From Thermasporomyces composti (GTDB taxonomy: Bacteria > Actinomycetota > Actinomycetes > Propionibacteriales > Actinopolymorphaceae): 64,000 nt of DNA. Below, one piece after another: positions 18,871-26,263 of this stretch. The stretch is from assembly GCF_003386795.1 (NCBI RefSeq), contig NZ_QTUC01000001.1:3596001-3660000 (forward strand), written 5' to 3'. The stretch's first letter is position 1. Each line of letters opens with the position of its first letter. The position numbers were made by a program, and so were the translations under genes. Under the pieces are notes generated by a model. That model made no database searches. It worked only from the letters and a program-made list of their open reading frames with translations, and was not told the DNA's origin.

Positions 18871-20211
18871 GTGGCCTCCTGGTGGTGTGAGTACGCCTGG
18901 CTGCCGTCCGGTGAGGTGGTTCCGGGCGTGCTCGTGGACGTCGCCGGCGACACGATCAGCGCGGTCACCCCGGGAGTACCGCGGCCACCGGGGACAGCCC
19001 GGCGGCTGCGTGGACTCACCATCCCAGGGCTGGCGAACGTCCACTCACACGCCTTCCATCGCGCGTTGCGGGGACACGCCCAGCGCGGTCGTGGCTCGTT
19101 CTGGACCTGGCGGGAGCGTATGTACGCGCTGGCCAGCCGTCTCGCCCCGGACTCCTACCAGCGGCTGGCTCGTGCGGTGTTCACCGAGATGGTGCTCGCC
19201 GGCGTGACGTGTGTGGGGGAGTTCCACTACGTCCACCACACCCGCGACGGGACGCCGTACGCGGACCCGAACGCGATGGGCAACGCCCTCATCGCGGCCG
19301 CGCACGAGGTGGGGATCCGGATCACCCTGCTCGACACGTGCTACCTCGCTGGCGGTCTCGGCCGGCCCGTGGCAGGGGTCCAGCTTCGGTTCAGCGACGA
19401 AACGGCGGCACGGTGGGCGGAACGGGTCGACCGGCTGTCCTCCGACGCCACGACTCGCATCGGTGCCGCGCTGCACTCTGTTCGGGCCGTACCGCTCACC
19501 GAGATTCCGGACGTGGTGGCGTGGGCTCGGGCTCGTGGCGCGCCGCTGCACGTGCACGTGGCGGAGCAACCGGCGGAGGTGGCCGCCTGCGTCGAGCTGC
19601 TGGGTCGGACGCCCGTACGAGTTCTGGCCGACGCGGGAGCGTTGGGCGAGGAGACGACGGCGATCCACGCCGTCCACCTCGACGACGACGACGTGAGGGT
19701 GCTCGGTGAGACGAGGACCGGCGTGTGCGTGTGCCCCACCACCGAGCGCGATCTCGCCGACGGCATCGCGCCGGCGCGCCGGTTGGCGGACACAGGGGTG
19801 AGGCTCACCCTCGGCTCGGACAGCCATGCGGTCGTGGACCTGTTCGAGGAGGCTCGCGCCGTCGAGCTCCACACCCGCCTCCAGACGCTCGTGCGCGGGA
19901 GCTTCGACGCGGCCGAGCTGCTGACGGCGGCGACGGTGAACGGACACCGCGCCCTGGGGTGGCCGCAGGCCGGGCGGATCGCGCCGGGTGCCCTCGCCGA
20001 CCTCGTGACGATTCGCCTCGATTCGGTCCGGACCGCGGGGTGTGGGCCCACGCCGGAGACCGTGGTCTTCGCGGCCACGGCCGCCGACGTGACCGATGTC
20101 GTCGTCGGCGGCCGCGTCGTCGTCCAGGAGGGCCGCCACCAGTGGCTCGCTGAGGCGGGACAGACGCTCGAGGTCGCGATCGCGGAGATCACGGAGGACC
20201 TCCCGAGGTGA
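18871..20211 (+). CDS. hutF: Formimidoylglutamate deiminase-like amidohydrolase (HutF)
   Basis: HutF removes ammonia from N-formimidoyl-L-glutamate to give N-formyl-L-glutamate in the five-step histidine degradation route. The 446-residue product has the amidohydrolase metal site HSH at 58-60 (NVHSHAFHRALRG), then HVHVAEQ, HAVHLDDDD and SDSHAVVDLFEEAR, in the order and spacing typical of HutF. The GTG at 18871 gives the usual family length; an in-frame ATG upstream (18790) adds an unrelated basic segment. No other hut gene is nearby. A related deaminase of unknown substrate cannot be excluded. Confidence 0.85.
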   Translation: MASWWCEYAWLPSGEVVPGVLVDVAGDTISAVTPGVPRPPGTARRLRGLTIPGLANVHSHAFHRALRGHAQRGRGSFWTWRERMYALASRLAPDSYQRLARAVFTEMVLAGVTCVGEFHYVHHTRDGTPYADPNAMGNALIAAAHEVGIRITLLDTCYLAGGLGRPVAGVQLRFSDETAARWAERVDRLSSDATTRIGAALHSVRAVPLTEIPDVVAWARARGAPLHVHVAEQPAEVAACVELLGRTPVRVLADAGALGEETTAIHAVHLDDDDVRVLGETRTGVCVCPTTERDLADGIAPARRLADTGVRLTLGSDSHAVVDLFEEARAVELHTRLQTLVRGSFDAAELLTAATVNGHRALGWPQAGRIAPGALADLVTIRLDSVRTAGCGPTPETVVFAATAADVTDVVVGGRVVVQEGRHQWLAEAGQTLEVAIAEITEDLPR

Positions 20212-20291
20212 CGAGACCGGGCCCGCGCCGCGGCCACGATCCCACGTCAGGTGGTCGCCCGCCGGTCACCTTCAGGTTGACGCCAGCGGTG

Positions 20292-20951
20292 TCAGTCCTT
20301 CGCGAGGTGACGGACCATGCGACCGAGCTGCTCGGCGTACCGCTCGAGGAACTCCGGGGAGTCTGGCTCGAGGCCGGTGATGCTCCGGGTGAGATGTGGG
20401 AGGGCGGCGGGCGCGCTGGCGGCCGCCATGAACGCCAGGAGAAAGCATCCGGGGTCGATGTCGTCGGCCAGCTCGCCGTCGCGCTGGCGCCTCTCCAGAT
20501 CGGCCACCGCCTCCCGCATGCGGGAGCCGCGCTCCTCACCTCCTGGGTCTCCGCCGGCGGGCATCAGGCCGTCCCAGAACAGGAGCCGGACGAGACTGCG
20601 CTGGTGTGCGGAGCGGGGTAGGTAGCTGGTGACGAGCTCCGCGAGGGTCATCCTCTGCTGCTCGGTCGACGCCTCGGTCTCCTGCCGTCGCCAACTCGAC
20701 GCGATGGCCCGGTAGAGCCCCTCCTTCCCGCCGAAGTAGTAGGAGATCAGCTGCTTGTTGACTCCCGCTCGCTCGGCGATCTCGTTCACCCGCGCCCCCG
20801 CGTAGCCCCTCGCCGCGAACTCCGTGAGTGCGGCGTCCAGGATGCGCTCGCGGGTCCGTTCCGGGTCGCGGCGGCGCTCGTCCGGTCCGGGCGCTCGCCG
20901 CGATCGAGCGGAGCTGGCAGGCGTCGCCTCAGCGGCTTGCCGACGTTCCAT
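20292..20951 (-). CDS. TetR-family regulator, divergent from a flavin monooxygenase
   Basis: A 219-residue TetR protein with the helix-turn-helix ARVNEIAERAGVNKQLISYY followed by FGGKEGLYRAIA, and a C-terminal helical ligand domain. The ATG at 20951 is preferred because a TAGGAT -10 box (complement of 20958-20963) lies seven bases upstream, which implies a leaderless transcript. Three phased palindromes lie directly upstream, between this gene and the monooxygenase gene. It most likely represses both itself and the monooxygenase. Confidence 0.88.
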   Translation of the reverse strand: MERRQAAEATPASSARSRRAPGPDERRRDPERTRERILDAALTEFAARGYAGARVNEIAERAGVNKQLISYYFGGKEGLYRAIASSWRRQETEASTEQQRMTLAELVTSYLPRSAHQRSLVRLLFWDGLMPAGGDPGGEERGSRMREAVADLERRQRDGELADDIDPGCFLLAFMAAASAPAALPHLTRSITGLEPDSPEFLERYAEQLGRMVRHLAKD

Positions 20952-20971
20952 GTCCTCGATCCTAGCGCAAT

Positions 20972-21029
20972 TCATCCATCTGGATGACTCTTTCATCCGT
21001 ACGGTTGACTACCTCATCCGGATGGTTGA
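20972..21029. promoter_or_regulatory. Three tandem palindromic operators with exact 21-bp phasing
   Basis: Three 16-base copies of TCATCC-N4-GG(A/T)TGA start at 20972, 20993 and 21014, each followed by five bases. All would therefore lie on the same face of the helix, two turns apart. The second and third copies contain a TTGACT -35 (21005-21010) that pairs with GATACT (21028-21033) at 17 bp. The predicted monooxygenase promoter is thus built into the operators. The TetR protein encoded next door is the obvious ligand. Confidence 0.75.
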
Positions 21030-21150
21030 TACTGCTGGTGTCGATGTCGGCTGTGGCGCTCGAAGGGTGCCCGGTGGTCCTCGAGCGTGCGGGACCGAAC
21101 CGGTGCTCCTCGTCACCGCAGACCTACGGAGGGAAGAGAGGGAGCAGACA

Positions 21151-22773
21151 GTGAACGTCCAGACGCAGCCCACCCGCACGTCCGTGCTCGTCGTCGGTGG
21201 CTCGCTGACCGGGCTGTCGAGCGCCGTGTTCCTCGCCTGGCACGGCGTACCGACCCTGCTCGTCGAACGCCACCCCGACCTGCTCATGCACCCGCGGCTG
21301 CGTGGGATCACCCCGCGGACGGTCGAGATCTTCCGGCAGGTGGGCATCGAGCAGGCGATCAAGGACTCGAGCTTCGCGGGGGCGGAGTTCGCCTGGCGGC
21401 CTGTGCGGGCCGAGACGATGGCCGACGAGCACTACGACGCCGTCGAGGACGAGGAAGACGACGACGTGCCGGAGGACGCCGGCGCGGTCAGCCCCTGCGG
21501 GTTCGGCCCCATCGACCAGGACAAGCTGGAGCTCATCCTGCGGAGTCGTGCGGTCGAGCTCGGGGCGGACGTGCGGTTCTCGACCGAGCTCGTGTCGTTC
21601 GATCAGGACGACGAGGGCGTCACCGCGCACATCCGTGACCGCCGTACCGGCGAGACCACGACAGTGCGGGCGGACTACCTCATCGCCTGCGATGGCTGGG
21701 CGAGCCCGATCCGGCAGCACCTCGGCATCTCGCTCGACGGGCCTGGTCCGCTGTTCCACACGATCACCGCGATCGTCGACGCCGACCTCCGACCCGCGAC
21801 TCGCGGCCGCAAGGTCACCGTCGCCTATCTGCAGCGGCCCCAGCCCTTCACGATCATGCTCGCGCACAACGAGGAGGGCACCCGCTGGGTGTTCGGCACC
21901 GGCTACTCGCCCGAGCACGAGAAGCTCGAGGAGTACACCGACGAGCGAGTCACAGAGCTGGTCCGCGCGGCGGCTGGACTACCCGACCTCCAGGTCACCG
22001 TCCGCCCGCAGATTCCGGGGACACAGCACAAGATCTTCGGCTTCAGCATCGGCGCGCAGGTGGCGAGGCAGTACCGGTCGGGACGGGTGTTCCTCGTCGG
22101 TGACGCCGCCCACCTGGTCCCGCCGACCGGTGGCTTCGGTGGGAACGCCGGGATCCAGGACGCGCACAACCTCGCCTGGAAGCTGGCAGCCGTGGTGCGA
22201 GGCGAGGCCGGGCCTTCCCTCCTCGACACCTACCACGACGAGCGCCGACCGGTCGGGCTCCTGACGATGACGCAAGCGCTCGCGCGCTTCGGCGATCGGA
22301 TGGGGCCCGGTGCCGAGACCCCGCTGCTGGACCACGCGGCGGTCTCCATGGGCTACCGCTACCAGTCGGCGGCGATCCTGGATCCGGTGGAGGGCGACCC
22401 GGTGACGCCCGCGAAGCTGCGCGGCGAACCCGGGACTCGAGCGCCCCACGTTCCGATCGACGGTGGGGTGGCTGGCGCCCAGTCGACGATCGACCTGTAC
22501 GGCAAGAACGCCGTGCTGCTCGCCGGCCCTGGCGGGTCCGACTGGGTCAACGGCGCGACGTCCGCCGCCAAGGAACTCGGCATTCCGCTCGACGCGTACC
22601 GGTTCGGAGGCGAGATCGCGGGGGAGGACGGCCCCGAGCGCTACGGCATCGGGACGGACGGGGCCGTCCTGATCCGGCCGGACGGGTTCGTCGCCTGGCG
22701 GAGCACCGGCTCGGTCGCCGATCCCGCACGCGAGGTCGAGCGGGTTCTGCGGACCGTGTGGTGCCGGTCCTGA
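21151..22773 (+). CDS. FAD-dependent aromatic monooxygenase (PheA/TfdB-like)
   Basis: A 540-residue class A flavoprotein hydroxylase. It has the N-terminal FAD Rossmann motif GGSLTG at 16-21, a DG motif (DGWASPIRQHLG) for FAD/NADPH contact, the GD motif GRVFLVGDAAHLVPPTGGFG at about 311-330, and a thioredoxin-like C-terminal domain. Such enzymes hydroxylate phenols or polyketide aromatics using NAD(P)H and oxygen. GTG 21151 follows GGGAG; the long in-frame upstream extension overlaps the tetR promoter and is rejected. The gene is divergent from tetR and probably induced by the regulator's aromatic ligand. Confidence 0.9.
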   Translation: MNVQTQPTRTSVLVVGGSLTGLSSAVFLAWHGVPTLLVERHPDLLMHPRLRGITPRTVEIFRQVGIEQAIKDSSFAGAEFAWRPVRAETMADEHYDAVEDEEDDDVPEDAGAVSPCGFGPIDQDKLELILRSRAVELGADVRFSTELVSFDQDDEGVTAHIRDRRTGETTTVRADYLIACDGWASPIRQHLGISLDGPGPLFHTITAIVDADLRPATRGRKVTVAYLQRPQPFTIMLAHNEEGTRWVFGTGYSPEHEKLEEYTDERVTELVRAAAGLPDLQVTVRPQIPGTQHKIFGFSIGAQVARQYRSGRVFLVGDAAHLVPPTGGFGGNAGIQDAHNLAWKLAAVVRGEAGPSLLDTYHDERRPVGLLTMTQALARFGDRMGPGAETPLLDHAAVSMGYRYQSAAILDPVEGDPVTPAKLRGEPGTRAPHVPIDGGVAGAQSTIDLYGKNAVLLAGPGGSDWVNGATSAAKELGIPLDAYRFGGEIAGEDGPERYGIGTDGAVLIRPDGFVAWRSTGSVADPAREVERVLRTVWCRS

Positions 22774-24556: not shown

Positions 24557-25282
24557 TCACCAGGGGACGGTGCCGAAGCGGTCGACGAAGCGACCTGTGC
24601 CGCCGTCCGGGCCCTCGGTCGCCAGCGCGACGATCGCGTCGGTGCCCTCGGTGACGGTCTGGGTGCCGCTGAAGCCGTTGAGGTCGGTCGCCGTGTATCC
24701 GGGGTCGACGGCGTTGACCCGGATGTCCGGCAGCGCCTTGGCCAGCTGTGTCGTCATCATCGTCAGCGCTGCCTTCGACGATCCGTACAGCGGGCTGGCG
24801 AACTGCGATTCGACGCGCTCGGGGTCGTGCGTCAGCCCCTGCGAGCCCATACCGCTGCTGACGTTGATCACTGCGGGGTGTTCCGAGCGTCGGAGCAGCG
24901 GAAGGAACGCCATCGTCACGCGCAGCGCGCCGAACACGTTCGTGTCGTAGACCCGCAGCGCCTCGGCGGCGGTGAGCAGCTCCATTGTGTTCAGCCCATT
25001 GCCGTCATTCGTGTCCGCTCGGTTCGTCATGACACCGGCGTTGTTGATGAGCACGTTGAGGCGGCCTTCGTGCGCCTCGACGTCGGCCACCGCGGCCTTG
25101 ATGGACTCCTCGTCGGTGACGTCCATCCGCACGAAGCGCGCGCCGAGCCGTTCGGCCGCCGACCTGCCGCGCTCAAGATCGCGGGCGGTCACGATCACGG
25201 TGCGGCCCAGCTCGATGAGGCGGCGGGCGCTCTCGTAGCCGAGGCCCTTGTTGGCCCCCGTGATGAGGATGATGTCGCTCAT
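24557..25282 (-). CDS. Short-chain dehydrogenase/reductase
   Basis: A 241-residue classical SDR with cofactor motif TGANKGLG near residues 8-15, NNAG in NVLINNAGVMTNR, a serine in INVSSGMGSQG, and the catalytic YxxxK in PLYGSSKAALTMM. The start at 25282 (MSDIILITG) gives the normal N-terminus. It is divergent from an MmyB-like XRE regulator with a gap of about 100 bases, an arrangement very common in actinomycetes where the regulator controls the SDR. NADPH-dependent carbonyl reduction is likely; the substrate is unknown. Confidence 0.92.
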   Translation of the reverse strand: MSDIILITGANKGLGYESARRLIELGRTVIVTARDLERGRSAAERLGARFVRMDVTDEESIKAAVADVEAHEGRLNVLINNAGVMTNRADTNDGNGLNTMELLTAAEALRVYDTNVFGALRVTMAFLPLLRRSEHPAVINVSSGMGSQGLTHDPERVESQFASPLYGSSKAALTMMTTQLAKALPDIRVNAVDPGYTATDLNGFSGTQTVTEGTDAIVALATEGPDGGTGRFVDRFGTVPW

Positions 25283-25384
25283 ACGTTCAGCCTTCGCGGC
25301 CTCCGTTCGGGCCGCCAGGGACGCCTTGACGGTAGGACTGCCGGTACCAGTCACATCGTGTCGGCGCGCCGGAGAATGGGCGGT

Positions 25385-26263
25385 ATGAGCGAGGAGACCG
25401 GGCTCGGTCCCACCCTCCGTGCCTGGCGTGACCGGCTGAGCCCGGCGGCGGTCGGTCTGCCCGCCGGGCGCAAACGTCGCGCTCGAGGATTGCGCCGCGA
25501 GGAGCTGTCGGAGCTCGCGGGGATCTCGGTGGACTACGTCATCCGCCTGGAGCAGGGACGAGCGACCAGGCCGTCTCCCCAGGTCGTCGCCTCGCTCGCC
25601 CGAGCGCTCCAGCTGAATCGGGAGGAGCGGGACCACCTCTACCGCCTCGCCGGGCTGCGTCCCCCGTCCGACCGGCACATCGTCGACCACATTCCTCCTG
25701 GGATGCAGAGAGTCTTGACCCGCCTGGGCGAGACGCCGGCGGCCGTCTTCGCCGCCGACTGGCGGCTGATCTGGTGGAATCGCGCATGGTCCGCGGTGCT
25801 CGGCGACCCCAGCGGGATCGACCCGGAGGATCGGAACCTGGTCAAAGCCCACTTTCCCGTCCCCGGCGACTGCGGTCGTGTCGGGCTCTGGCCCGTCGTT
25901 CTCCGGGACCGCGAGAGCACCGGGCGCGCCATCGTCGCCGACCTGCGCCGGGCCTCGGCGAAGTACCCGGATGACCCGCGACTGTCCGCCCTCATCGAGC
26001 GGACGTTGGCCGGCAACGCACGCTTCGCGCAGCTCTGGCGGGAAGGCGCGGTCGCGGGACACCCCGAGGACCGCAAGACGGTCATCCGACCGGGCGTCGG
26101 CGAGATCACTCTCGACTGCGACGTTCTCACGGACACCGACACCGATCTCAAGGTGGTGATCTTCACCGCCGAGCCCGGCAGTGAGGACGAGAGCCGGCTC
26201 AAGCTCGCGCTCGTCGCTGGAGCGGTGCCGTCGATGACCATCACCCAGACCGAGGAGACGTAA
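25385..26263 (+). CDS. XRE-family regulator with MmyB-like ligand-binding domain
   Basis: A 292-residue regulator. The helix-turn-helix spans about 30-85 with GLRREELSELAGISVDYVIR and the conserved LEQGRATRPSPQVVASLARA. The C-terminal MmyB-like PAS-type domain starts at about 105 with TPAAVFAADWRLIWWNRAW and ends near ITLDCDVLTDTDTDLKVVIF. Regulators of this type usually control the divergent SDR gene. The start at 25385 has a -10-like GAGAAT about nine bases upstream and no Shine-Dalgarno, suggesting a leaderless mRNA. Confidence 0.9.
   Translation: MSEETGLGPTLRAWRDRLSPAAVGLPAGRKRRARGLRREELSELAGISVDYVIRLEQGRATRPSPQVVASLARALQLNREERDHLYRLAGLRPPSDRHIVDHIPPGMQRVLTRLGETPAAVFAADWRLIWWNRAWSAVLGDPSGIDPEDRNLVKAHFPVPGDCGRVGLWPVVLRDRESTGRAIVADLRRASAKYPDDPRLSALIERTLAGNARFAQLWREGAVAGHPEDRKTVIRPGVGEITLDCDVLTDTDTDLKVVIFTAEPGSEDESRLKLALVAGAVPSMTITQTEET

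Follow-up and report, generated by a model that had tools for sequence, protein, structure and literature searches.

A divergent repressor and monooxygenase pair

The window, that is, the whole 64,000-nucleotide stretch of Thermasporomyces composti DNA that was analyzed, contains a tetR gene and a gene for an FAD-dependent monooxygenase that face away from each other across 199 bp (Table 1). The TetR protein joins a TetR_N helix-turn-helix to an all-helical ligand-binding domain, as expected of a TetR-family repressor, and its AlphaFold model (pLDDT 89) places SCO4008 (PDB 2d6y) at Foldseek rank 1. The mechanical start of the tetR open reading frame (20996) falls inside the operators described below; the ATG at 20951 was preferred because of the arrangement TAGGAT-7-ATG and the homologues.

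The monooxygenase matches RubL (4e-116) and GrhO5 (7e-105) in the PDB. It reaches 503 bits with the NCBIfam equivalog model for RdmE (aklavinone 12-hydroxylase), below the cut-off of 700, and is therefore a relative of RdmE rather than a member. Its close neighbors encode a solute-binding protein, an amidohydrolase, a GNAT acetyltransferase, an S-adenosyl methyltransferase, a short-chain dehydrogenase, and an MmyB-like regulator; these immediate surroundings do not suggest a biosynthetic cluster. The short-chain dehydrogenase and the MmyB-like XRE regulator (MLTR_LBD) are themselves divergent (24557-26263), forming a second regulator/enzyme pair in the window.

Table 1. Features of the divergent control region and its two genes, in window coordinates.
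Feature	Position	Strand	Basis or remark
tetR, 219 aa, TetR_N + TetR_C_21, ATG at 20951	20292..20951	-	Pfam TetR_N 4e-16, TetR_C_21 2e-8
Predicted tetR -10, TAGGAT	20959..20964	-	7 nt before ATG 20951; predicted leaderless start
Predicted operator copy 1, tetR-proximal, TCATCCATCTGGATGA	20972..20987		Adjoins the predicted tetR -10 on its upstream side; +21 third-copy offset favored in relatives
Predicted operator copy 2, TCATCCGTACGGTTGA	20993..21008		Right arm is the source of the predicted monooxygenase -35
Predicted monooxygenase -35, TTGACT	21005..21010	+	Overlaps copy 2
Predicted operator copy 3, enzyme-proximal, TCATCCGGATGGTTGA	21014..21029		Right arm gives the first two bases of the predicted monooxygenase -10
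Predicted monooxygenase -10, GATACT	21028..21033	+	Overlaps copy 3
Likely ribosome-binding site, GGGAG	21140..21144	+	6 nt before GTG start; sequence
FAD-dependent monooxygenase, 540 aa, FAD_binding_3 + Rng_hyd_C, RdmE/GrhO5/RubL-like	21151..22773	+	Pfam 2e-90

Between the genes, the dyad TCATCC-N4-GG(A/T)TGA occurs in three zero-mismatch copies at steps of 21 and 21 bp. A sequence-only reading of this DNA had reported repeats starting at 20972, 20993, and 21014 with 21-bp steps, and both the coordinates and the spacing are exactly right. Copy 1 is a perfect palindrome with the right arm GGATGA, the right arm of copies 2 and 3 being GGTTGA. Although a single dyad is unremarkable by itself (a reversed-pattern control gives one match per genome), the 4.37-Mb genome has exact matches at these three positions and nowhere else. 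Further genomic targets, as of a genome-wide regulon, were rejected on the same count, no other exact dyad being present anywhere in the genome. The predicted operators overlap the predicted promoters of both genes, which on the tetR side involves the -10 only; no convincing tetR -35 was found in the window.

Conservation of the dyads among TetR relatives

Relatives of the TetR were drawn from the whole genomes of related organisms, together with a collection of approximately 85,000 species genomes. The main search relied on peptide patterns that included the recognition-helix peptide NKQLISYY, through which many of the relatives were found, and the invariance of that helix is therefore partly ascertained; the whole-genome search, which is free of this bias, likewise shows the dyads. 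Among 73 non-redundant relatives, spanning about ten actinobacterial families, 71 have TCAWCC-N4-GGWTGA within 300 bp upstream of tetR at no more than two mismatches, against 21.6 in shuffles. A pair of dyads at exactly 21 bp is found in 47/73 (0.85 in shuffles), so the phased repeats are conserved upstream of orthologues, the opposite of the outcome that the sequence-only reading had named as refuting it. Spacings of 25 and 4, which rank next, are largely due to a variant palindrome found in Nonomuraea. Chains of three copies occur in nine loci, the window counted; in Actinopolymorpha pittospori all three copies are retained together with their 36-bp distance to the tetR ATG. About 15 relatives possess one dyad only, and phasing is thus not essential for every member.

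The dyads remain while the gene across from tetR changes. An RdmE-like monooxygenase is the divergent partner in the window's family only (5 loci). Its place is taken at 54 loci by a smaller and barely similar FAD monooxygenase, at 9 by an NmrA-like NAD(P)-binding protein, and at 4 by an MFS transporter. In one locus (L098) the NmrA-like gene sits downstream rather than divergently. On the TetR tree these partner types form clades, with five changes in total. Distant monooxygenase homologues in two other genomes (G019 and G045, ∼40% identity) lie away from the array, and the 21-bp pair is absent upstream of 16 more distant, outgroup TetRs. Taken together, the persistence of the dyads through partner changes, the enzyme homologues off the array, and the outgroups devoid of the pair indicate that the motif is owned by the TetR. 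A motif belonging to the enzyme was rejected on these grounds, and one general to TetR relatives is disfavored by the outgroups, some of which nonetheless carry a related dyad (see below). When a two-dyad composite with 21-bp spacing was sought in 58 genomes (≤3 mismatches), it stood beside this tetR in six; elsewhere it gave two isolated 3-mismatch matches, in genomes with no detected TetR relative. The comparative evidence, with dyads conserved alongside the TetR, strongly supports the original proposal that they are TetR operators.

The start of tetR is conserved as well. A TANNNT hexamer lies 5-8 nt ahead of an in-frame tetR start in 72/74 loci (background 4% per position), which supports the leaderless tetR of the sequence-only reading well; its mRNA is probably leaderless. 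In several Nonomuraea loci (L028, L039, L048, and L062, at ∼2950-2990, and L057, at ∼1986-2005) the site nearest tetR frequently takes the form of a 20-bp palindrome, TCAACCATCCGGATGGATGA, which reaches right up to the tetR -10. A gap of 8 instead of 4 bp separates the outer arms, leaving room for two 16-bp dyads that overlap.

The predicted enzyme promoter and the 21-bp step

TTGACT-17-GATACT is the sole sigma-70-like site in the 1.1 kb from 20200 to 21300 (shuffles 0.0, sd 0.2), its -10 being an imperfect match. Transcription from this predicted promoter would give the enzyme mRNA a leader of ∼110 nt. On the enzyme strand, the right arm of one dyad runs on into TTGAC(A/T), and the corresponding arm of the following dyad provides the first bases of GATAnT; a TTGA-type -35, a 17-bp spacer, and an nAnnnT -10 are placed in operator arms in this manner in ∼41/74 loci. 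In 23 of the 41 loci having the operator-arm promoter, an ATG follows the -10 by 6-7 nt, which independently supports the -10 and suggests that many partner genes are leaderless. A promoter running through copies 2 and 3, as had been predicted for the window, is thereby strongly supported on comparative grounds. Leaderless starts on both sides of the array are suggested in 23 relatives, where the start codons of the two divergent genes each lie 6-7 nt past the -10; examples are small-monooxygenase loci (L026-L032, L039, L048, and L058-L062) and MFS loci (L016 and L029).

The 21-bp step had been attributed to cooperative phasing of repressor dimers, an explanation that one part of the array does not need and that may apply to the other. 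Because the hexamers sit in equivalent operator arms, 21 equals the 17-bp spacer plus 4, and promoter spacing suffices for the step between copies 2 and 3 with no need of cooperativity. The whole step could then be a by-product of promoter geometry, with operators acquired at the two promoter hexamers and occupied by independent, non-cooperating dimers. Such a reading concerns the spacing only and leaves the assignment of repressor and operators as in our preferred explanation. It draws on the ∼41/74 loci with TTGAC and GATAnT in equivalent arms, on the existence of single-dyad loci, and on an extra constraint in the -35 arm, where the variable A/T base of each half-site is T in 48/50 cases versus 33/50 in the -10 arm (Fisher p = 2e-4) and where a C follows TTGA in 47/50 loci. 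However, it is somewhat doubtful as a full account, for a third copy also recurs at +21 outside the enzyme promoter. Measured from the -35 dyad, an extra tetR-ward dyad is found at +21 more than at any other offset examined from 6 to 49 (z 3.8). The TCA with which it starts falls there in 15/50 loci, versus no more than 4 loci for each of the other offsets between 6 and 44. These third copies belong to at least four groups (Actinopolymorphaceae, Sphaerisporangium, an Actinocrispum/Kibdelosporangium/Rhodococcus group, and Amycolatopsis), within which shared ancestry shrinks the effective sample. Since the enzyme promoter leaves the +21 copy unexplained, helical phasing likely plays a role for the third copy. 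The 21-bp spacing would also be compatible with several TetR dimers binding cooperatively at adjacent sites.

Two other readings of the repeats fare less well. Half-sites alternate every 10-11 bp, and dimers might also occupy the outward dyads GGWTGA-N5-TCATCC, giving as many as five sites that overlap at intervals of 10-11 bp and hold dimers on both faces of the DNA. QacR and CprB offer a precedent for this register, binding cooperatively as dimers of dimers to sites of 22-28 bp (PMC4150764). We regard a QacR-type arrangement as unlikely here, as single-dyad loci retain the full N4 form (e.g., TCATCCATTTGGATGA in L056) and arrays open with TCAWCC and close with GGWTGA. It is far less probable still that the repeats are the sites of another regulator or form a transcribed hairpin or terminator. 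Copy 1 does score as terminator-like, but copies 2 and 3 are imperfect stems, and the predicted transcription starts flank the whole set, which would leave the copies out of both transcripts; on these grounds a terminator or RNA hairpin was rejected. Another regulator is at odds with an array that tracks this TetR through changes of partner gene.

Known TetR systems and the predicted switch

EthR of Mycobacterium tuberculosis is a TetR-family repressor whose gene adjoins that of a flavin monooxygenase, ethA. The two systems thus share a repressor beside a flavin monooxygenase gene. Cooperativity is experimental for EthR, whose cooperative octamerization on its operator is named in the title of a reference cited in PMC3511530, whereas for the window TetR it is a prediction. 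TetR/tetA of Tn10 also consists of divergent genes with palindromic operators, which repress both promoters (PMC3511530); in the window repression of both is only predicted. That system has two 15-bp operators and an efflux-pump target, in contrast to the three 16-bp dyads and the enzyme found here.

A similar layout is that of SCO7222/SCO7223 of Streptomyces coelicolor, in which a TetR-family repressor is divergent from a monooxygenase gene with three palindromes between them, three gel-shift complexes form, and repression of the neighbor was shown (PMC3511530). Three TetR operators ahead of a monooxygenase gene therefore already have a precedent. Its operator sequence is a different one, TGGAACGNCGTTCCA, and neither phasing nor a fusion of operator and promoter hexamers is described for it in the available portion of PMC3511530. 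The same text formulates a ‘200 bp’ rule, by which an intergenic gap of <200 bp predicts TetR repression of the divergent neighbor; the dyad-bearing region of 199 bp falls within this limit of ∼200 bp for divergent TetR targets and so counts in favor of such regulation. Among solved structures, SCO4008 is the best relative by sequence (3.5e-18) as well as by fold, although the fold alignment has only 26% identity and the recognition helices differ (NKQLIYAYYGNK vs NKQLISYYFGGK). An incomplete literature search, which covered SCO4008, the isoflavonoid-responsive regulator ifnR, and TetR operators in tandem or on the same face, found no characterized member of this TetR subfamily, which is weak evidence of novelty. 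The system belongs with TetR repressors of divergent targets; what stands out in it is that operator arms and promoter hexamers are exactly fused and that the partner gene has been exchanged.

In our preferred reading, which we hold with high confidence, the adjacent TetR has its operators in the three dyads, within one compact divergent control region, where it would repress both genes until released by a ligand. Bound as one dimer per 16-bp dyad, it would mask both hexamers of the monooxygenase promoter (copies 2 and 3) and the stretch just upstream of the -10 of the leaderless tetR (copy 1). The enzyme gene and tetR itself would be shut off until a small molecule, probably the substrate of the enzyme or a related aromatic compound, releases the repressor. 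The 21-bp step may play two roles, providing the 17-bp promoter spacer between copies 2 and 3, whose arms double as hexamers, and at copy 1 setting dimers two helical turns apart on the same face. From the comparative data we strongly infer repression and autoregulation by the adjacent TetR, and we infer its binding to the dyads and its induction. The layout very probably represents a genuine genetic switch, though one of a fairly conventional sort.

A bolder interpretation, plausible but tentative, is that these proteins constitute a new TetR subfamily in which the operator is the promoter. A single 21-bp register may serve both sigma spacing and cooperative packing; the cassette would have persisted in about ten actinobacterial families as its target switched among monooxygenases of two types, an NmrA-like protein, and an efflux pump. 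The analysis defines an operator motif and a promoter layout for a widespread TetR subfamily, and the regulated genes are therefore predictable in many actinobacteria. It also provides a compact natural promoter in which operator phasing and promoter spacing are separable. With targets exchanged behind a constant repressor-operator cassette, the class of compound sensed may be conserved as the response changes (oxidation or export), and such a cassette is of use in the search for inducers and the design of sensors.

Related dyads extend beyond these relatives. Some of the 16 outgroup regions contain a TAACC-N4-GGTTG dyad, and in L125, L133, and L134 the form TAACCGAC(T/C)GGTTGG is present in two copies ∼49-51 bp apart. 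These dyads hint that the TetR clade is wider, its members sharing an AACC-N4-GGTT core but differing in spacing.
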